Assembly: GCF_039641995.1 (NCBI RefSeq)
Contig: NZ_CP087714.1
Coordinates: forward strand, 372,001 to 436,000
DNA length: 64,000 nt
DNA from: Geoglobus acetivorans
GTDB taxonomy: Archaea; Halobacteriota; Archaeoglobi; Archaeoglobales; Archaeoglobaceae
Direction: 5' to 3'
Below the pieces are notes generated by a model. That model did no database searches. It worked only from the letters and a program-made list of their open reading frames with translations, and was not told where the DNA came from. Of the stretch, positions 10,667-64,000 are shown piece by piece (positions within the stretch are counted from its first letter, which is position 1; every line of letters starts with the position of its first letter). A program made the translations under genes and the position numbers.

Positions 10667-11503
10667 ATGTACGATCCCCTGTCCATAATCTGGTTTCTGC
10701 TCTTTTTCTACCTGCTCTTTGCCCCCCAGATGAGACAGCAAATGCTTTTCAATACGAGAAGAAAGGTACTGCAAAAACTGGCCGAAAAAAGGGGGAGCAA
10801 CGTTATAACTCTGATCCACAGGCAGGAGAGCGTTGGCTTCCTTGGTATACCCATTTACAGGTACATAGATATTGATGATTCTGAAAAGGTTCTTCGGGCA
10901 ATACGAAGTACACCAAAGGACAAACCCATAGACCTTGTGATCCATACTCCTGGCGGGCTTGTTCTTGCTGCAACCCAGATAGCCAGGGCAATTCACGAGC
11001 ATCCTGCCAAAACAACTGTCATAGTTCCGCATTATGCTATGAGTGGTGGAACCCTGATTGCTCTCGCTGCAGATGAGATCATCATGGATCCTCATGCAGT
11101 TCTTGGTCCGGTAGACCCGCAGTTGATGAACTATCCTGCCCCATCCATCCTGAAAGTTCTGGAAAAGAAGGACGTTAAGGATATCGATGATCAGACAGTA
11201 ATAATGGCAGATATTGCGGAAAAGGCAATCAATCAGGTCAGGGATCTCGTTTTTTCGCTGCTTAAAGACAAAGTTGGAGAGAAAAAGGCTCAAGAGATAG
11301 CCAGAATTCTGACTGAGGGGAAATGGACACACGACTATCCGCTCACGTACCGTGTTGTTGAAGAATTTGGACTGAACGTCTCAACTGATGTACCGGAGGA
11401 GGTGTATGAGCTTATGGATCTGTACTCTCAGCCAATAATGCAGAGACACCCGGGTGTTGAATTCGTTCCCAGCCATGGGGATAGGGGGAAGGCGGGAAGG
11501 TGA
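10667..11503 (+). CDS. Clp-fold membrane serine protease (SDH family)
   Basis: A 278-residue protein of the serine dehydrogenase proteinase family (PF01972 type, SppA/ClpP fold). One N-terminal transmembrane helix (about 4-22) is followed by a crotonase-like protease domain: DLVIHTPGGLVLAATQIARA, VPHYAMSGGTLIALAADEI with the likely nucleophilic Ser in MSGG, and MDPHAVLGPVDPQ. It probably degrades membrane or secreted peptides and is often linked to SPFH proteins in other genomes. It overlaps the moaD start by four bases (GTGA). Confidence 0.87.
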   Translation: MYDPLSIIWFLLFFYLLFAPQMRQQMLFNTRRKVLQKLAEKRGSNVITLIHRQESVGFLGIPIYRYIDIDDSEKVLRAIRSTPKDKPIDLVIHTPGGLVLAATQIARAIHEHPAKTTVIVPHYAMSGGTLIALAADEIIMDPHAVLGPVDPQLMNYPAPSILKVLEKKDVKDIDDQTVIMADIAEKAINQVRDLVFSLLKDKVGEKKAQEIARILTEGKWTHDYPLTYRVVEEFGLNVSTDVPEEVYELMDLYSQPIMQRHPGVEFVPSHGDRGKAGR

Positions 11504-11745
11504 GCGGCGTGGTCAGGGTAAAGTTTTTTGCAAATTTCAGGGAGACTGCTGGAACGAACGAGCTGGAAATTGAAGCTAAAACGCTTGGAGAGCTTTTAGA
11601 GAGTCTCAAACTCAGGTATCCCGAAATGGAAAAGCTCTACAGTTATGCCATAATCATGGTCAACGGAAGGCAGGTGAAAGATGCCGATCTGAGGCTTGGG
11701 AGAGAGGACGTTGTTGCCCTTCTACCTCCGGTGAGTGGTGGTTGA
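11500..11745 (+). CDS. moaD: MoaD-like sulfur carrier protein
   Basis: An 81-residue beta-grasp protein ending in the diagnostic Gly-Gly (PPVSGG), which is thiocarboxylated to donate sulfur for molybdopterin synthesis. VKFFANFRETAGTNELEI at the start and REDVVALLPP at the end match MoaD. In archaea such proteins can also serve in tRNA thiolation or as ubiquitin-like modifiers (SAMPs). The next gene, moeA, supports a molybdenum/tungsten cofactor role. The GTG start at 11500 overlaps the protease stop. Confidence 0.9.
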   Translation: MSGVVRVKFFANFRETAGTNELEIEAKTLGELLESLKLRYPEMEKLYSYAIIMVNGRQVKDADLRLGREDVVALLPPVSGG

Positions 11746-11746
11746 G

Positions 11747-12913
11747 ATGCTGTTTGAGAATCTCATGAGTGTTGAAGATGCAAAACGCAAGCTCCTTGAA
11801 AGAATAGAGCCTTTTGACAGTGGAGATGTCGAAACCCTCTCTATTGAGAATGCCCACATGCGAATTCTCGCCGGAGATGTTGCATCGGGGATAGATATTC
11901 CCCATTACAACAGGGCAGCAATGGATGGCTTTGCTGTCAGGCACGCTGAGGTCAAACAGGCTGGACGAACGAATCCTGTTTTGCTCGAGAAGGGCAAGAA
12001 TGCTGTGTGGGTGCATACGGGCGACCCTCTTCCAGAGGGTTTTGACGCTGTTGTCAAGGTTGAGGATACCGAGGAAATCGAAGGCTTTGTTGCGGTTTAC
12101 AAGGCTGTGAGAAAACATGAAAACGTTGGGCTGAGAGGGGAAGACGTCAGGAAAGGAGATGTAATTGCTGAGAGGGGAACACTGCTCAGAGCACACAGCA
12201 TTGCCCTGCTCAGAAGTGCGGGCGTGGAGAGCGTTGAGGTTCTCAGAAGGCCGAGGGTCCTTGTTGTTCCCACTGGCGACGAGCTTTTGAAGCCGGGAGA
12301 ACGCCTGGTTGAGGGGAAGGTTTACGAGAGCAACGGAATAATGATTGCCGCATATCTGAGAGAATGGGGGGCTGATGCTGAAGTTGCTGACATCGTGAGG
12401 GATGAGGTATCCCAGCTCGAGAAAATCTTTGAAAATTCTGGGGATTATGACATGGTGGTTACAACGGGCGGCACATCCGTGGGGAAAAGGGATCTTATTT
12501 ACGACGTCCTGGACGCGCTTGGAGATGTGGTTTTCAGAGGTGTGGCTTTGAGACCCGGGAAACCAACACTGTTTGCCACGGTGAATGACACTCCTGTTCT
12601 TGCATTGCCCGGTTTTCCGGCGGCATGCGTCGCATCTGCTTACGTCTTTCTCAAACCCGCGATACAGAAAATGCTTGGATTTAATGAAGAGGTGTCGTTT
12701 TTTGCAAGTATTTCTGATAACATTTATTCAAAAGCAGGATTTACGAGTTTCGTCCGGTTGAGAGTCGATTTTGGCAGGATGGTTGCACAGCCCGTATCGT
12801 CTCATGGCTCTGGAATTCTGAGCAGCATTACAAAAGCGAATTGCTATACGATAATTGACGAAAACACCGAAGTGGTTGAGAGGGGTGAATCGGTCAGGGT
12901 TTTCCCTCTTTGA
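11747..12913 (+). CDS. moeA: Molybdopterin molybdenumtransferase MoeA
   Basis: A 388-residue enzyme that inserts molybdate or tungstate into adenylylated molybdopterin. The family segments are ASGIDIPHYNRAAMDGFAV, VHTGDPLPEGFDAVVKVED, VVPTGDELLKPGE, the MPT-binding VTTGGTSVGKRD and the C-terminal domain IV. The ATG at 11747 is one base after the moaD stop and has GGTGGTTGAG upstream; a GTG at 11735 is in frame but less suitable. Archaeoglobales need this cofactor for W/Mo oxidoreductases. A mobA-like gene lies far away at the end of the window. Confidence 0.94.
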   Translation: MLFENLMSVEDAKRKLLERIEPFDSGDVETLSIENAHMRILAGDVASGIDIPHYNRAAMDGFAVRHAEVKQAGRTNPVLLEKGKNAVWVHTGDPLPEGFDAVVKVEDTEEIEGFVAVYKAVRKHENVGLRGEDVRKGDVIAERGTLLRAHSIALLRSAGVESVEVLRRPRVLVVPTGDELLKPGERLVEGKVYESNGIMIAAYLREWGADAEVADIVRDEVSQLEKIFENSGDYDMVVTTGGTSVGKRDLIYDVLDALGDVVFRGVALRPGKPTLFATVNDTPVLALPGFPAACVASAYVFLKPAIQKMLGFNEEVSFFASISDNIYSKAGFTSFVRLRVDFGRMVAQPVSSHGSGILSSITKANCYTIIDENTEVVERGESVRVFPL

Positions 12914-22130: not shown

Positions 22131-23705
22131 TTAGACGATAAAGTTCCACTTTTTGCCGTCATTCGTGAACACGTGGACCGTGCATGCAAGACAGAGGTCG
22201 AAGCTGTGTATCACCCTAATAACGTTCCACTGGTCTCCGTTTTCCATTGGGGTTCCGACAAGTGCTTCCTCAAGTGGTCCGGGATTCCCGGCTGAATCTC
22301 TCGGTGAGACGTTCCAGGTCGTTGGAGCTATGACCTGATAGTTCTCGACCTTTCCATCCCTCGCTCTCATCCAGTGTCCCAGCGCTCCTCTCGGGGCCTC
22401 TCTGAGGCCTACGCCCTCTCCAGTCAGGTTTTCAGGGAATTCTATGTGCGTTTTCTTGCCCGCATGGTCTTTCAGCTGGAGAAGAAGGCTTTCGAGGTAG
22501 TCTATCATTAGGAGCTCCTCCTGAATCCTCGCAATGTTTCTTGCCAGAGCGTTGCTTGCCGTTCGTCCACCTGCAAGGCTCTTTCTGAGGTCGAGCGGGT
22601 CTCCGTATTCCCATCCGTCTCTGAAACCCTTGGCCACCATTCTCGCCAGCGGTCCAACCTCTGCCGGTGTGCCTGCGTATCTGGGTGCCTTGGCCCAGGT
22701 GTATGCACCGCTCTTTCCGTATTTCGGTACGAGCTTTCTCGTGTCCTCGCTGCCCACGTATTCTCCACCAGCGTCGTCGCTGTAGTATGAGTGCTTCACG
22801 TCCTCGCTTATTTTCCTGTAGTCGAATTTTTCCAGCTCGTTTCCATTGAAAAATCCTGACGGGAAAAACAGCTTTCCTTCAGCATCCGTCAGAAATCCGT
22901 AGGCCAGCATCGTTGCTGTTCTTTCGCCCATTTCGGCCAGACCCATGTTTGCCATCACCACGATGAGCGACACCAGGTCGTAAAGACCCCTCCCGATCTC
23001 CGGGTCTGAGGGTGGTGCAATCTCCTTACCGTCCTGGACCTTTCTGGAGACATCATCTATGATATATCCTGCTACATCTGCAGTGTGTTCGAGTGTGGTC
23101 TTTCCGAGTCCGACCCCTATTGCCCATTTCTTGACGTCGAGAACGATGCTGATCAGCCTGCTTATCACCTTCTCGTCTATTTCGAGGGTTACCCCGCCAT
23201 GAATGGGCGTCATGATGTGCGGCACTTTCCCACCGATGTAGGCCATGGCCTGATGAAGTCTTCTCTGGGCGAAGACGGCCTCCTTCACCCCCTGGCCAAC
23301 AAGCGGGTTGAACCTTGTAAGGCCGGTTTTGTGTATCTGGTCACAGTAATCGGGGCCAGTGAGAGCGTAAGCCCATACCGGGTGGTCAAAGACGTATTGA
23401 AGGCTTGCTATGACATTTCTGAGCAGCAGCGCCGGTTCGGGTATCCCGTGGCCCCACTCGTTTCCCAGCCCGGCTGCGTTTTCAATGGCAAACAGACTTG
23501 CGAGTCTGTGGTCGTTGTGGCAGACTCCGCATATCCTCTGCAGGATTATGGGGGCATCTCTTACATCCCTGCCAACCACAATCCTCTCAAAGCCCCTGAA
23601 CATCGTTGCGAGAGCCTTCGCATCCTTAACAACACCGTTCTCCACATTCAGCTTCACTCCGTGATGACCCTCAAGTCTCGTAACCGGATCAATTACCACT
23701 TCCAC
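22131..23705 (-). CDS. [NiFe] hydrogenase large subunit
   Basis: The 524-residue catalytic subunit of a group 1 membrane-bound uptake hydrogenase. The N-terminal nickel ligand motif is R57-I-C59-G-V-C62-H63; TRLEGHHG near residue 9 is also conserved. The C-terminal motif reads D503-L-C505-L-A-C508-T-V-H511, with Leu where most homologues have Pro. The 13 residues after His511 should be removed by a maturation protease, which is not encoded in the window. It is the third gene of the operon, overlapping cytochrome b by 17 bases. Confidence 0.95.
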   Translation of the reverse strand: MEVVIDPVTRLEGHHGVKLNVENGVVKDAKALATMFRGFERIVVGRDVRDAPIILQRICGVCHNDHRLASLFAIENAAGLGNEWGHGIPEPALLLRNVIASLQYVFDHPVWAYALTGPDYCDQIHKTGLTRFNPLVGQGVKEAVFAQRRLHQAMAYIGGKVPHIMTPIHGGVTLEIDEKVISRLISIVLDVKKWAIGVGLGKTTLEHTADVAGYIIDDVSRKVQDGKEIAPPSDPEIGRGLYDLVSLIVVMANMGLAEMGERTATMLAYGFLTDAEGKLFFPSGFFNGNELEKFDYRKISEDVKHSYYSDDAGGEYVGSEDTRKLVPKYGKSGAYTWAKAPRYAGTPAEVGPLARMVAKGFRDGWEYGDPLDLRKSLAGGRTASNALARNIARIQEELLMIDYLESLLLQLKDHAGKKTHIEFPENLTGEGVGLREAPRGALGHWMRARDGKVENYQVIAPTTWNVSPRDSAGNPGPLEEALVGTPMENGDQWNVIRVIHSFDLCLACTVHVFTNDGKKWNFIV

Positions 23706-24345
23706 GCTTAATCACCTCCTCAACCCAGAGTGGATGCTCATCCTCCGCCTTTTCCAGCTCCATCTTGCCGGTGAAGATGACCTTGTTGAAGGGGAAGAAC
23801 TTCTTCCTGAGGTGGCTGAAGTACATGTGCCAGCTCGCTATGAACACAACAGCCAGAATTGCCTCCTCCCAGTGTGCAACCCTGAATGCCGCAAACCACT
23901 CTCCTGAGGGGGAGAAAATCTCCGGATAGCTCAGCACGAGTCCGGTTGAGATCATTATGACCATCCCCCAGAAGGCACCCCAGTACTCGAACTTCTGCAC
24001 GTAGCTGAACTTGTGGTATTCCGGCACCTCGTCTGAAAGACCAAATGCAAACTTGACATCTGCTACGAAGTCCCGAACGTCCTTCATCCTCGGTATCATT
24101 GTAGTCGGCCTTTTTGCAATGGCCCACAGGATGTGGTAGATTCCTGCACCTATCATCACGAAGCTCGCAAGCCTGTGCCACCCTCGAACGTTTTCAACCC
24201 CGCCCATGGCGTTTATGAGAGCCATCCCCCAGTCCGTATATCTGTAAAGAAGTGGCAGGCCGGTGATGGCGAGGATTATGAAGCTGGTGAGAAGGAGCAG
24301 ATGCTGGAGCCTCTGGTGAACATCAAACCTCAGAACGTACCTCAT
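23689..24345 (-). CDS. Hydrogenase cytochrome b subunit
   Basis: A 218-residue di-haem cytochrome b561-type subunit with four transmembrane helices. Candidate haem ligands lie in FDVHQRL, GWHRLASF, IYHILW and SWHMYFSHL. It passes electrons from the hydrogenase to the quinone or methanophenazine-like pool. The gene sits between the small and large subunit genes and overlaps both (four bases and 17 bases). Confidence 0.9.
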   Translation of the reverse strand: MRYVLRFDVHQRLQHLLLLTSFIILAITGLPLLYRYTDWGMALINAMGGVENVRGWHRLASFVMIGAGIYHILWAIAKRPTTMIPRMKDVRDFVADVKFAFGLSDEVPEYHKFSYVQKFEYWGAFWGMVIMISTGLVLSYPEIFSPSGEWFAAFRVAHWEEAILAVVFIASWHMYFSHLRKKFFPFNKVIFTGKMELEKAEDEHPLWVEEVIKRGSGN

Positions 24346-25409
24346 TTCTCCTTCCTCCGTTCCTTCTCAATCTTGCTCTCCCTGATGGCGTGAGTGACGA
24401 TGTAGGCTCCGGCTCCAACCAGAACCGCTCCGGTCAGCGTCGTGAATACCGTCTTCGTCAGATCAATCTCCAGCCTGCTCTGGGCCTTGAAGAACGGAGA
24501 GATCTCGTCCGGGAATCCGGGATGCATGCACCCTATGCAGGGCGCTCCGGCATTCATGCATACGTTTATTCCTCCATTCCACTTGGTCTCACTGCATGCG
24601 GAGAGCGTCATCGGCCCCCTGCATCCCAGCTTGAACAGGCACTTGTTGTACCTCATGTCGCTCTCCATGAAGCTCTCGGCAAACCACCCCTCGTCATAGA
24701 ACCCCCTCCTCGCGCAGTTGTCGTGTATCAGGTTTGAGAAGAACGCTTTGGGCCTCCAGTGGTCGTCAAGCTCGGGAACAATTCCGAGCAGTACGCTCGC
24801 AAGCGTCACCATCAGCCAGTCCGGGTGTCCCGGACAGCCGGGTATCAGCACAACCGGCACTGACGGTTTCCTGTCCTTCAGGAACTGGTAAAGCCCAACA
24901 GCATTTGTCGGGCTCTTTCCGTCAAAATCCCTCCCGGAGGGTATCCCTCCGTATGTGGCACAGCTTCCAAAACCGACGATGGCAACCTTTGTCCTGGGAA
25001 TCAGCTCGTCCAGCCACTGGACAAGGGTTACTTCCTCTCCATTCCTCTCTCCGAAGGTGCATGCATACTCCATGTCTCCTGTAGGGATGGAGCCTTCCAG
25101 AACGAGGACATCAGGTTCAGTATTCTCCAGAACACTTATCGCTTCGTCACCGAATGATGGCATTATGGTCGGGTGGAAGTTGATTCCCACCTTCAGCTCT
25201 TCAACGGCATCGTAAAGGTCTGGATCGGAGGCCTGGAGAAGTGAGACTGTACAGGCAGTATCACTCTGCCCCTGCAACCAGAACAGGTTCACTCCATTGC
25301 TTTTTGCTGTTTCAAAAGCATTTACAATCTCTGTTTTGTATCTCAGCAAAAATCCGGTTGCACCCAGGGTTGCAAGAGCTTTGTTAAAATCTCTCCTGCT
25401 TAGATGCAT
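24342..25409 (-). CDS. [NiFe] hydrogenase small subunit with Tat signal
   Basis: A 355-residue iron-sulfur subunit. It begins with a twin-arginine signal (SRRDFNK) and ends with a transmembrane anchor (about 322-340), so the enzyme faces outside. Proximal cluster ligands are D50, C53, C150 and C192: the first Cys of the usual C-x-x-C is Asp (GQSDTACTVS). Distal ligands are H229, C232, C257 and C263. Medial ligands are C272, C291 and C294, plus C284 at the position that is Pro in [3Fe-4S]-type enzymes. By memory of HydDB this resembles the Archaeoglobi group 1j; that needs a search. The ATG follows GGAGGTGT. Confidence 0.94.
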   Translation of the reverse strand: MHLSRRDFNKALATLGATGFLLRYKTEIVNAFETAKSNGVNLFWLQGQSDTACTVSLLQASDPDLYDAVEELKVGINFHPTIMPSFGDEAISVLENTEPDVLVLEGSIPTGDMEYACTFGERNGEEVTLVQWLDELIPRTKVAIVGFGSCATYGGIPSGRDFDGKSPTNAVGLYQFLKDRKPSVPVVLIPGCPGHPDWLMVTLASVLLGIVPELDDHWRPKAFFSNLIHDNCARRGFYDEGWFAESFMESDMRYNKCLFKLGCRGPMTLSACSETKWNGGINVCMNAGAPCIGCMHPGFPDEISPFFKAQSRLEIDLTKTVFTTLTGAVLVGAGAYIVTHAIRESKIEKERRKEK

Positions 25410-25431
25410 TGAGACACCTCCAAATATAACT

Positions 25432-25463
25432 ATTAATCATTTACTTTTTTTCGCATGATTAAT
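25432..25463. promoter_or_regulatory. Inverted repeat in hydrogenase promoter (possible operator)
   Basis: Perfect 9-base arms ATTAATCAT and ATGATTAAT separated by 14 bases. It begins at the TATA box edge and spans the expected transcription start, as an archaeal repressor site would. The palindrome ATGATTAATCAT also occurs in the FAD-oxidase promoter (36582-36593). Confidence 0.45.
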
Positions 25464-25472
25464 TAATATAAA
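25463..25472 (-). promoter_or_regulatory. TATA box of hydrogenase operon
   Basis: Minus strand TTTATATTAA. Transcription would start near 25441, giving a leader of about 30 bases that includes the Shine-Dalgarno GGAGGTGT. Confidence 0.55.
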
Positions 25473-25543
25473 CTCATATTTAAGGTTTTCGGCGTTAATT
25501 TTTATTTATAAAGGGTGGATCTCGCAGTATGGGTTTGAAGAGT

Positions 25544-26539
25544 TCAGATCCCCGATATTCTGATTATGTCGTCACGTATTTCTACAGAACCATCGATAAA
25601 GCTGTTGATAACATAGGCGTTGCTGAGTATGTGCTTTGTGATCTCGGTTGAGCTGTACTCCGTAACTCCCCTTGCGATAACGCCCGGTATCATGACCTGA
25701 TCTGCAAGATGTCTGTCAAATGCTCCTTGCGAGCCAATTTCTCTCAGGATTTCGAGTGCAGCTTCACCGCCAACCCTTTCTGCTGGCTTACCCTTCTCTC
25801 CGTACGAAACGGAGCCCTTGTACTTGCAGAATAGCGTAATACCCGAGCCGGTGGACACGCCTCTTCTGACCTCTGTTTTTATCTCACTTAATACTCCATG
25901 TTCTCTCAAAACCTCTTCGGCACTCTTTGCCTGTCTTTCGGCAACATGTTCGGGGAGATTCGAGCAGTGGCTTATCCCCCTGACCGTGCTGCACTCTGCT
26001 CTTCTGAATTTTATTCCTTTCAGTTCCCCACTGAATATTTTCACGATAATTTTGCCCCCACCCTTGGGGTAATATCCTCTTCTTATCAGCTCAATTTCGA
26101 ATTCTGCTCCCATTTCTTTCAGCACATCTCCAAGCACGAATACGAAATAATCTACACTTGGACTCCACTTGACGTCCGTGCCTCCCGTTATTTCGATTCT
26201 GCATTCTCTACCAGCATGGAGCAGAGGGGGCATAATCGTCTGCAGAAGGAGCGTTATGCTCCCCGCCGTGCCTATATCCACTTTCAGGTCTCTTACGCGT
26301 ATCTTTCCCGGCCTGAATACGACCCTTGTAGATCCCACCCTCAGACCCTCAACCCTTCCGTTACACAGCATCTTTGCTGTTTCGATTCCCTTCAGATGCT
26401 GGGCCGCAAGCCCCGGTTTTGGCCTGCTGGCTCTGATATTGTAAATCTCTACATCCTCACCGGTTATACAGGAAAGAGCGATAGAACTCCTTAAAATCTG
26501 CCCACCACCCTCGCCATAACTTCCGTCGATCCTGATCAT
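25544..26539 (-). CDS. rtcA: RNA 3'-terminal phosphate cyclase
   Basis: A 331-residue cyclase that converts RNA 3'-phosphates to 2',3'-cyclic phosphates with ATP through an enzyme-AMP intermediate. The start IRIDGSYGEGGGQILRSSIA, then ASRPKPGLAAQHLKG and the C-terminal RHLADQVMIPGVIARG with the catalytic His are diagnostic. The length is normal. It stands alone, upstream of the hydrogenase promoter. Confidence 0.96.
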   Translation of the reverse strand: MIRIDGSYGEGGGQILRSSIALSCITGEDVEIYNIRASRPKPGLAAQHLKGIETAKMLCNGRVEGLRVGSTRVVFRPGKIRVRDLKVDIGTAGSITLLLQTIMPPLLHAGRECRIEITGGTDVKWSPSVDYFVFVLGDVLKEMGAEFEIELIRRGYYPKGGGKIIVKIFSGELKGIKFRRAECSTVRGISHCSNLPEHVAERQAKSAEEVLREHGVLSEIKTEVRRGVSTGSGITLFCKYKGSVSYGEKGKPAERVGGEAALEILREIGSQGAFDRHLADQVMIPGVIARGVTEYSSTEITKHILSNAYVINSFIDGSVEIRDDIIRISGI

Positions 26540-27583: not shown

Positions 27584-28672
27584 TTAGCTCGTGGTTCTGA
27601 TTTTTTTCAGCAGCTCATATGGCAGAAACTCCATGATGTACTCGTATATCTTTGGAGATACCCAGACCACTCGATTCCACCCGCCGTCGCCTTTCAGAAA
27701 TTCTGGGGACTTCATGTATGCGAAGCTGATCCCCAAAAAACCCTCAACCTGCCGTCCGACGATGATTTTTTCCATACTGTCGAACGTGAGCCCTACGGGT
27801 GTCTTTTTTCCGCAGCTTCTGTCAACAATTCCGAAGCCGTTCTCTTCCGGAATGTAAAATACTATCGCTTCGGCATAATTTCCTGTGGATGGGGGCGAAT
27901 CGAGAACTGAATGCAGTTTCACTCTTGTTATTGTTCCATCACTCATTTCCTCAACAGCTCTGTTCACACCTTCGTACTCTCCTTTGTGTTCGTCGATGGT
28001 TCTGCCTCTGTCAACCGGGAAGTAGTAGTGCACGAGCTTAAGCTCTTCTGCTGCTTTTGCCTCGCCGTAGAGAGTTCCGCATGGGGAGGGCCTGTCAGGA
28101 GTGATTATGCATACGTGATGGGGAAGGTAAACCTGACACGACACACAGCCGTAAAATCTACTCACGTCACTGTCTTTTAAGTTTCTTGATTTCTCTTCTC
28201 TGACTTCATGAATTCCCCGGCTTTTTTCAATGATTTTTATAAACTCGTTTTCATCGCATATTATTCTGACTTTCACCGATCTGACTGCAGGGATTGCTTT
28301 TATTGCATCATATATAACCCTGCCAACGCACTCTGCCGAGAATTTTTCTTTGATTTCTTCAGAAACGATTATTCTGACGTTTTCTTTTCTGAATCTGTAT
28401 TCCACACCCTTCATCCTGTTTATGACTTCTGAAAAAATGCTCTCAATTGCCTGGGCGGAATCCTCAGTTACACCTGAAACCAGAACGTGGATACCCATTA
28501 TGTCTCTGCAATTTCCAATTACCTCAATTCCGTCACCCTCGCCTATCTCCACAAGCTCAAATCCCTTTAGAATTCTGCCATTCTTCACCCTTTCTCCTGT
28601 GTACAATTCACTCATCTCGATGCAATCAGCCTGAACATCTATTTTCTCGGGATCGATGACCCTTTCAAGCAT
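27584..28672 (-). CDS. Acetyl-CoA synthase beta-subunit-like protein (CdhC homologue) lacking Cys-Gly-Cys
   Basis: A 362-residue relative of CdhC, the archaeal acetyl-CoA decarbonylase/synthase beta subunit. Four cysteines (C176, C179, C188, C198 from this start; YGCVSCQVYLPHHVC then TPDRPSPCG) have the exact 2-8-9 spacing of the A-cluster cubane and bridging ligands. AIVFYIPEENGFGIV and SPEFLKGDGGWNRVVW are also CdhC-like. The CGC motif that holds the distal nickel is replaced by T263-G264-N265 (PPSTGNYAEA). Classical synthesis of acetyl-CoA is therefore unlikely. The protein is shorter than CdhC (about 460-520 residues) and no other CODH/ACS genes are nearby. ATG at 28672 fits a TATA box 26 bases upstream; a longer frame reaches 28741. 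Confidence 0.85.
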   Translation of the reverse strand: MLERVIDPEKIDVQADCIEMSELYTGERVKNGRILKGFELVEIGEGDGIEVIGNCRDIMGIHVLVSGVTEDSAQAIESIFSEVINRMKGVEYRFRKENVRIIVSEEIKEKFSAECVGRVIYDAIKAIPAVRSVKVRIICDENEFIKIIEKSRGIHEVREEKSRNLKDSDVSRFYGCVSCQVYLPHHVCIITPDRPSPCGTLYGEAKAAEELKLVHYYFPVDRGRTIDEHKGEYEGVNRAVEEMSDGTITRVKLHSVLDSPPSTGNYAEAIVFYIPEENGFGIVDRSCGKKTPVGLTFDSMEKIIVGRQVEGFLGISFAYMKSPEFLKGDGGWNRVVWVSPKIYEYIMEFLPYELLKKIRTTS

Positions 28673-28739: not shown

Positions 28740-29186
28740 ATGCAGATAGGAGTAATAGGAAGCGGAGAGTGTTATGGAGACATCTGTGATGCTGCTTACA
28801 GGATAGGACAGCTCCTTGCCGAAAACGGTGCGGTGGTGATAAACGGCGGTCTCGGAGGAGTGATGGAGGCTGTTAGCAGAGGTGCAAAGAGCAGAGGCGG
28901 CACGGTTATTGGAATAATCCCATTTAAAGACAAAAAGCCCGCAAACAGATACTGTGATTACGTCATTGCGACCGATATGGGTCATGCGAGGAACATGATC
29001 ATTGTCCATTCGAGCGATGCTCTCATAGCCGTGGGGGGCGGTTATGGCACCGTTTCCGAGATGGCGATTGCTCTCAAGGAGGGAAAAAGAGTGGTGGCTT
29101 ACAGGCCTGCTGTAAAGCTTGATGGGCTGATTCTTGCTGAAAGCCCCGAAGAGGCTGTGAGTCTTGCACTGGAGGGATTCAGTTGA
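28740..29186 (+). CDS. TIGR00725 / LOG-like nucleotide-binding protein
   Basis: A 148-residue Rossmann-fold protein related to LOG (lysine decarboxylase-like) phosphoribohydrolases. IGVIGSGECYGDICDAAYRIG, INGGLGGVMEAVSRGAKSRGG and ALIAVGGGYGTVSEMAIALKEG are characteristic; the last contains the PGGxGT-like loop in altered form (VGGGYGT). Function of the subfamily is unclear. It is divergent from the ACS-like gene and translationally coupled to the YjbQ gene. Confidence 0.83.
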   Translation: MQIGVIGSGECYGDICDAAYRIGQLLAENGAVVINGGLGGVMEAVSRGAKSRGGTVIGIIPFKDKKPANRYCDYVIATDMGHARNMIIVHSSDALIAVGGGYGTVSEMAIALKEGKRVVAYRPAVKLDGLILAESPEEAVSLALEGFS

Positions 29187-29581
29187 AGTTTCTGGAGTTT
29201 GAAATGGACAGGGATGAGGTTGTGGACATCACCCGGGAGGTTCAGGAGTTCGTCAGGGAAAGCGGGAAAAAGGATGGAGCAGTCCTTGTATTCAGCGTGG
29301 GCTCGACAGGTGCGATAACAACGCTGGAATATGAGCCGGGTTTGAAAAAAGACCTGCCGAGAATGATGGACAAACTCGCACCTTATGGCGAACACTATGA
29401 ACATCATGGAACGTGGAATGACGACAATGGTTCATCTCACGTCAAATCTGCCGTAATTGGAACGAGTCTGATCGTTCCTTTCAGTGATGGGAGACTTGTG
29501 CTCGGAACGTGGCAGCAGATAGTCCTGATAAATTTTGACACCAGAAGGAGAAAAAGAAAGGTGGCCCTGCATATACTTTAG
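29183..29581 (+). CDS. YjbQ (UPF0047) family protein
   Basis: A 132-residue protein of the secondary thiamine-phosphate synthase/YjbQ family. EYEPGLKKDLPRMMDKLAP, the His-rich YEHHGTWNDDNGSSHVKSA and the C-terminal GTWQQIVLINFD are conserved. The start is TTG at 29183, overlapping the previous TGA, with GGAGGGA six bases upstream. Its real physiological activity is uncertain. It converges with the redox operon, overlapping the last gene by four bases. Confidence 0.87.
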   Translation: MKFLEFEMDRDEVVDITREVQEFVRESGKKDGAVLVFSVGSTGAITTLEYEPGLKKDLPRMMDKLAPYGEHYEHHGTWNDDNGSSHVKSAVIGTSLIVPFSDGRLVLGTWQQIVLINFDTRRRKRKVALHIL

Positions 29582-63530: not shown

Positions 63531-64000
63531 GTGAATGTTGCAATTCTCGTCGGGGGGAGGGGGAGGAGGCTTGGCGGTGCTGAAAAGTCTCAGATAAGAA
63601 TTTGCGGAAAAAAGATTATTGAAAGGCTTATCGAGGAATTTGCCGAATTTGAAACCGTTATTGTTTGCAGAGATGAAGGTCAAAAGCGGCTTTTTGAGGG
63701 ACATCGCTGTGTTGTAGATTCTGTGAGGAATTTTGGCCCTCTTGCAGGGATACATTCGGCTTTGAGCTACTTCAGTAGCAGGACAGCTGTTGTTGCGTGC
63801 GACATGCCCTTTGTTAAGGCAAAAGTTTTGGAAAAACTGTATGCTGAGGCTGAAAAATGTGATGCGGATGCGCTGCTACCGGTATGGAGTGACGGAAGAC
63901 TTGAGCCTTTGCTGGCAGTTTATTCTCCGAAAATTCTTCTCGAAATTGAGAGAAGCTTCGAAAAAAACGAGAGGAAGATACTCGCTCCAGTGTTCCGGAG
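63531..64000 (+). CDS. mobA: Molybdenum cofactor guanylyltransferase-like protein, 5' part
   Basis: The first 156 residues of a MobA-type nucleotidyltransferase that joins GMP to molybdopterin; cut by the window end. VAILVGGRGRRLGGAEKSQI is the GTP-binding loop (Gly-rich with the conserved Lys), FGPLAGIHSAL and VVACDMPFV contain the metal-binding Asp, and WSDGRLEPLLAVYSP the MobA signature. The GTG at 63531 suits the shared TATA box. It matches the moaD and moeA genes elsewhere in the window functionally. Confidence 0.87.
   Translation, partial: MNVAILVGGRGRRLGGAEKSQIRICGKKIIERLIEEFAEFETVIVCRDEGQKRLFEGHRCVVDSVRNFGPLAGIHSALSYFSSRTAVVACDMPFVKAKVLEKLYAEAEKCDADALLPVWSDGRLEPLLAVYSPKILLEIERSFEKNERKILAPVFR

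Follow-up and report, generated by a model that had tools for sequence, protein, structure and literature searches.

A relative of the acetyl-CoA synthase β subunit without the Cys-Gly-Cys nickel motif in Archaeoglobaceae

We describe a gene of Geoglobus acetivorans, located in a stretch of 64,000 nucleotides (hereafter the window), which encodes a paralogue of CdhC, the β subunit of acetyl-CoA synthase (ACS), that has kept the four cysteines of the [4Fe-4S] cubane and lost the Cys-Gly-Cys (CGC) tripeptide of the nickel site. In ACS the distal nickel (Nid) is held by the tripeptide Cys595-Gly596-Cys597 and the proximal nickel (Nip) by Cys509, Cys595 and Cys597, in the numbering of M. thermoacetica (PMC10299331). 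Among these cysteines only the equivalent of Cys509 remains in the paralogue, and the loss of CGC thus removes the distal site together with two of the three proximal thiolates, so that both nickels should be missing. We consider it highly probable that the protein is a nickel-free ACS paralogue, and its residues make a function as acetyl-CoA synthase very unlikely; being without the defining nickel site of ACS, it should not be annotated as one. We propose, with a probability of roughly 0.4, that this ACS-derived protein has been turned into an accessory Fe-S protein whose role lies most likely in Mo/W-pterin cofactor metabolism with MoaD and MoeA.

Results

The open reading frame pointed out in the preliminary description is real, with its coordinates and strand as claimed there (Table 1). 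The start at position 28672 is backed by the same start in homologues of other genera, M-x-x-R-(F/Y)-(I/V)-D-P; the longer frame from an ATG at 28741 would overlap the divergent gene. The CdhC-like segments noticed earlier in the protein are borne out by profile and structure matches. PF19436 (ACS/CODH β C-terminal, A3 homology) matches the window paralogue with 164.7 bits (E 3.5e-48) and is matched by all 19 family members tested. An HMM check had been proposed with PF03598; the ACS family match stands, but through PF19436, since PF03598 matches only 2 of the 19. The two CdhC models score the protein below their cut-offs (TIGR00316, 257.5 vs 355.95; NF003379, 363.7 vs 372), and it is matched by solved ACS chains, best by 9c0s_E (CdhC of Methanosarcina thermophila, E 1.4e-52). 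An AlphaFold2 model with 19 relatives as input (pLDDT 91.1, pTM 0.86) has the ACS fold; its TM score to truncated ACS 3git is 0.86, and all structure matches at E ≤ 0.001 are ACS. Domain searches of family members gave no DNA-binding or signalling domain.

The paralogue and CdhC are about 31-35% identical and have in common the fold, the A3 domain, the four cubane cysteines and many glycine, proline and aromatic invariants. Unlike CdhC, the paralogue lies outside the CODH operon and lacks the CGC tripeptide and the C-terminal tail, the window protein consisting of A2 and A3 only; the GGG loop is likewise lost in the family, and A2 is strongly diverged or absent.

Table 1. Positions in the window of the paralogue, its characteristic residues and the genes discussed in the text.
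Feature	Position	Strand	Basis or remark
ACS-β (CdhC) paralogue, 362 aa, domains A2 + A3	27584..28672	-	Domain matches, AlphaFold2 model, dN/dS
[4Fe-4S] ligand segment C176-x-S178-C179-x8-C188-x9-C198	28079..28147	-	Invariant in 21 paralogues, full-length and mini
G264-N265-Y266, where canonical ACS has Cys-Gly-Cys	27875..27883	-	Alignment; Cys in 0/21 paralogues
C17, additional Cys, conserved in the full-length form (canonical residue Pro)	28622..28624	-	Alignment
C115, additional Cys, invariant among the 16 full-length paralogues (canonical residue mostly Gln/Glu)	28328..28330	-	Alignment
TIGR00725 / SLOG cluster 4 (Moco-carrier/LOG-like), divergent neighbour	28740..29183	+	Profile and structure matches
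YjbQ/UPF0047, downstream of the TIGR00725 gene	29183..29581	+	Common to genera g1 and g5
MoaD of the archaeal type, C-terminus PPVSGG, some 16 kb away from the paralogue	11500..11745	+	Homologue directly follows the paralogue in g3
MoeA-type molybdotransferase, partner of the window MoaD	11735..12913	+	Profile match

The four cysteines said to lie at the spacing of ACS were found at residues 176, 179, 188 and 198 (+3, +9, +10), and the equivalent cubane cysteines in the canonical CdhC of the same genome are residues 212, 215, 224 and 234. At the nickel site the register comes from an ungapped alignment to 9c0s_E, in which C-G-C stands opposite G264-N265-Y266; the earlier reading of TGN in place of CGC was therefore right about the absence of CGC and one residue off in the exact residues. 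GNY, GLY or other residues occupy this site in 21 of 21 paralogues, and all canonical sequences compared have Cys there. The suggestion that the protein might bind one metal besides the cubane is not supported, as two of the three Nip ligands went with CGC and no nickel would be expected.

Relatives were searched in 99 genomes and then in 296 genomes of the phylum, and a wide scan with two family-specific patterns covered one genome per species in 84,980 species. The paralogue occurs in 22 Archaeoglobaceae genomes, in one of which (G037) the contig end cuts the gene and hides the CGC site, which leaves 21 testable relatives; the four cysteines are kept and CGC is absent in every one of them. 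A sequencing error or frameshift behind the missing CGC is thus rejected, the trait being common to all 21, and CGC-bearing homologues inside the clade were looked for among the testable relatives and none was found. In a tree of the A3 domain from which the CGC region had been left out, and which compared 16 full-length and five mini paralogues with 48 canonical sequences, the paralogues form one clade (support 100/98), with the minis as one group within it (100/100). The suspected conserved clade of TGN/TGL-type proteins, in which the cubane ligands persist and the tripeptide for the distal nickel has been lost, is in this way confirmed.

The full-length form (about 342-373 aa) is found in genera g1 (Geoglobus), g3, g9, g11 (Ferroglobus) and g13, and the mini form (172-178 aa), which contains the A-cluster domain only, in g5 and g6; searches for the paralogue found none in g4, the A. 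fulgidus-like genus, nor in g7, g8, g10 and g12. An initial single-sequence scan gave no match, and the pattern scan of 84,980 species gave no family member outside Archaeoglobaceae, its one extra match (L068, SZUA-158) being a canonical CdhC with a normal CGC. As far as searched, the paralogue family is restricted to Archaeoglobaceae, which are hyperthermophilic archaea.

Some further ACS proteins were met during these searches. A second ACS-like protein of G085 (L039/L139:1-1107, plus strand; 369 aa, start cut by the contig end) is a very divergent ACS-β relative in which a CGCVC loop replaces CGC, and G085 has a normal copy at another site; the divergent protein was rejected as a sister of the paralogues because it keeps the CGC/CVC loop and falls outside the clade, on a very long branch. 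The Geoglobus genome G003 has two different CGC-bearing canonical CdhC copies (contigs C68 and C24), and no paralogue was found in its assembly, which is fragmented and about 90% complete. In G059 (same phylum, family f4) a single ORF of 1377 aa (L138:3664-7797, minus strand) combines a complete Prismane-family CODH with an ACS part with CODH_A_N, CdhC and ACS C-terminal domains; similar matches, whose open frames span about 1375-1407 aa, were seen in G068, G077 and G094.

The genome of Geoglobus acetivorans (1.90 Mb, one contig) contains, elsewhere, the separate and full canonical CdhC whose presence the preliminary description had asked to verify, a protein of 521 aa with CGC present; its gene belongs to a complete CODH/ACS cluster that also encodes CODH alpha and epsilon, a CooC-like ATPase and two subunits of the CdhD/CdhE type. 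A canonical CdhC match is also present in nearly all paralogue carriers, and the canonical copies fetched from these genomes all have CGC. No CODH or corrinoid subunit genes lie near the paralogue in the 23 loci examined. The description of the gene as standing alone holds with regard to CODH, but not with regard to related genera, where it is linked to MoaD-MoeA and to TIGR00725 genes.

The paralogue family is under purifying selection. The dN/dS ratio is 0.17 between the window paralogue and its nearest relative and 0.06 and 0.08 in two other pairs, these three being the pairs with measurable dS, the remaining ones saturated at synonymous sites. Several residues are invariant in the paralogues and differ from the canonical residue, given in brackets: S178 (Leu), P197 (Leu), E301 (Ala), S316 (Gly) and S339-P340 (Pro-Lys). 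Such class-specific invariants indicate new constraint, not decay. The residue three after the second cysteine is Phe in all canonical sequences compared and Tyr, His, Arg or Lys in the paralogues, and residues invariant in the canonical A2 domain are lost opposite positions 78, 79, 81, 92, 100 and 102 of P0001.

The core of the family is the A3 domain, which is able to stand alone in the natural mini form of about 177 aa. In the minis an extra cysteine directly precedes the first ligand (CC-x-S-C). AlphaFold on the mini form alone, with five sequences, gave a pLDDT of 42 and no usable model. An isolated C-terminal domain of the C. hydrogenoformans ACS, a laboratory construct, carries its own cluster (PMC5298270). 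It resembles the natural minis in being the A-cluster domain alone; however, the construct has CGC and binds Ni, whereas the minis are without those ligands.

The neighbours of the 23 loci were grouped with no prior choice of gene families. The commonest is the divergently transcribed TIGR00725 gene, which adjoins the paralogue in 12 loci from five genera, mini-form genomes included; three of these loci, that of the window among them, were taken from coordinates since overlapping ORF calls had hidden them from the clustering. The gene is near-universal in Archaeoglobaceae with or without the paralogue (47/55 genomes). Of the divergent LOG-like/YjbQ pair reported earlier, YjbQ stands and the LOG-like protein is corrected to TIGR00725/SLOG cluster 4, nearer to Moco carriers: the nearest characterised structures are the Moco carriers 6y01 and 2iz5 (CrMCP), with E values of 1.9e-22 and 2e-17, and LOG phosphoribohydrolases are related, yet further away (1.4e-9). 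6y01 is RoMCP, a Moco carrier protein (PMC7470044). The window protein has GGLG where the Moco carriers have the arginine of GGR, which appears to be Arg42 of the Moco anion site of RoMCP, with the numbering read from the alignment. Because this arginine is missing and the family is near-universal, the TIGR00725 link is a lead and not an identification.

The paralogue, MoaD and MoeA lie on one strand in 6/6 species of genus g3, with the paralogue first; MoaD is 19-68 bp downstream of it in five of the six, and in the sixth (G019) it was found by profile directly downstream. The flanks beyond MoaD-MoeA differ between two g3 sub-groups and are rearranged. MoaA-MobA stand directly beside the mini gene in G042, and in Geoglobus a homologous MoaD-MoeA pair lies 15-19 kb from the paralogue. 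A gene for a SAM hydroxide adenosyltransferase is near this Geoglobus pair and also behind MoeA in three g3 species. Clustering of the paralogue with Moco genes is thus seen in one genus plus one genome only, and the MoaD-MoeA pair is absent from the mini-form genomes. On the CdhC tree the co-occurrence of MoaD-MoeA and paralogue amounts to one change and is phylogenetically confounded; with so few independent contrasts it cannot count as independent evidence. Genomes without the paralogue, such as those of the A. fulgidus-like genus, have MoaA, MoaD, MoaE, MoeA and MoeB-like ThiF, so the cofactor does not generally depend on the paralogue. A role as replacement of the MoeB-like E1 was rejected, ThiF proteins being present in 42/43 genomes. 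The radical SAM gene at L046 was considered as MoaA and dismissed, as it belongs to another radical SAM family. At positions 63531-63998 (plus strand) an ORF cut by the end of the window is MobA-like by eye, and MoaA lies just beyond that end, at genome position 436643.

Other neighbours vary among the genera. Geoglobus has RtcA and a NiFe hydrogenase co-directionally behind the paralogue; in the window these occupy 22134-26539 on the minus strand (RtcA, then the hydrogenase operon with small subunit, cytochrome b and large subunit), and an opposite-strand gene for a CaCA exchanger lies between. The mini gene is convergent with, and nearly touches, a hexulose-phosphate-synthase-like/RraA fusion gene in L033, L034, L035 and L037 (four genomes, two genera). 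In G011 SepCysS (L037:6676-7785, plus strand) lies about 200 bp upstream of the mini gene on the same strand, and in the A. sulfaticallidus-like genome G028 an Mrp/NUBPL Fe-S carrier ATPase directly precedes the paralogue.

Discussion

In the mechanism that we propose for the accessory Fe-S protein, a nickel-free [4Fe-4S] cubane would sit in the A-cluster pocket and no acetyl-CoA would be made, in line with the early suggestion of a chemistry other than acetyl-CoA synthesis. Cys179, the former nickel bridge, would now stand without nickel on the outer side of the cubane, and the cubane together with Cys17 and Cys115 of the long form may pass electrons or sulfur to a step in the handling of pterin dithiolene or of metal. 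The assignment to the Mo/W-pterin cofactor, for which gene neighbourhood is the one source, is more tentative than the proposal as a whole. It is favoured by the g3 gene order, by MoaA-MobA in G042, by the Geoglobus MoaD-MoeA pair and by the Moco-carrier-like TIGR00725 neighbour; against it stand the confinement of the operon to one genus, the minis without the pair, the missing GGR arginine and the co-directional RtcA and NiFe hydrogenase of Geoglobus. In its most specific form, with the nickel-stripped ACS domain as a working part of Mo/W-pterin cofactor assembly in Archaeoglobaceae, relaying electrons, sulfur or metal to MoaD-MoeA, and the mini as its minimal form, the proposal is doubtful.

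A somewhat unlikely alternative is an Fe-S protein for electron transfer or sulfur relay in general, without relation to Mo/W-pterin and perhaps acting with the TIGR00725 protein. Several neighbours point to it, namely the TIGR00725 gene, as the neighbour most widely shared by long and mini contexts, SepCysS and the Mrp ATPase; yet the last two are each linked in one genome, and the first is near-universal with or without the paralogue. Homology, fold and the canonical CdhC of nearly all carriers would fit a CODH/ACS accessory, that is, an assembly factor, decoy subunit or regulator binding CODH/ACS partners through the shared fold. The loci free of CODH genes, the minis without the whole of A2, the loss of canonical A2 invariants and the many genera with CODH/ACS and without the paralogue make such a role clearly unlikely. 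More unlikely still is an Fe-S sensor of redox, CO or nickel that regulates its neighbours, for example the NiFe hydrogenase: a nickel-free cubane pocket could suit sensing and the Geoglobus gene order would agree with it, but the hydrogenase linkage is confined to one genus and the protein has no domain for DNA binding or signalling.

The paralogue retains the A3 pocket and many shared invariants, as it would if it still carried out carbonyl or acyl chemistry with a different metal in the former place of nickel. However, 21/21 paralogues have lost every Nid ligand and two of the three Nip ligands, the canonical Phe is replaced and the GGG loop is lost, and we hold this chemistry to be very improbable. 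The loss of an active-site motif is also what a decaying duplicate would show, but the low dN/dS (0.06-0.17), the open frames in nearly all relatives and class-specific invariants maintained across about 50% divergence refute a pseudogene for the family as a whole and leave the idea scarcely credible for the window gene. The recruited accessory Fe-S protein is the reading that we prefer.

The copy in genome G006, which we take to be G. ahangari, is 71% identical to the window paralogue, and GAH_00919 is probably the G. ahangari member of the family. The G. ahangari genome paper counts GAH_00919 as an extra β subunit of CODH/ACS, and the passages found in it mention neither the CGC loss nor the clade nor the context (PMC4600277). 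Open-licence papers on ACS paralogues, on ACS with MoaD and on duplications in Archaeoglobales contained nothing on the family, which agrees with the preliminary description in that no function had been described, and no described protein that the paralogue works like was found as far as searched.

Studies of the A-cluster and of how it is assembled gain in the paralogue a naturally occurring 'cubane-only' counterpart for comparison, and the MoaD-MoeA gene cluster gives a specific and testable proposal for the use of the scaffold. The usual view of ACS is of an ancient enzyme with a single purpose, and carbon fixation is inferred from the number of cdhC genes. Homology-based annotation over-counts ACS in Archaeoglobaceae, and a conserved ACS fold with its cubane ligands and without the nickel site suggests that the scaffold can be repurposed.
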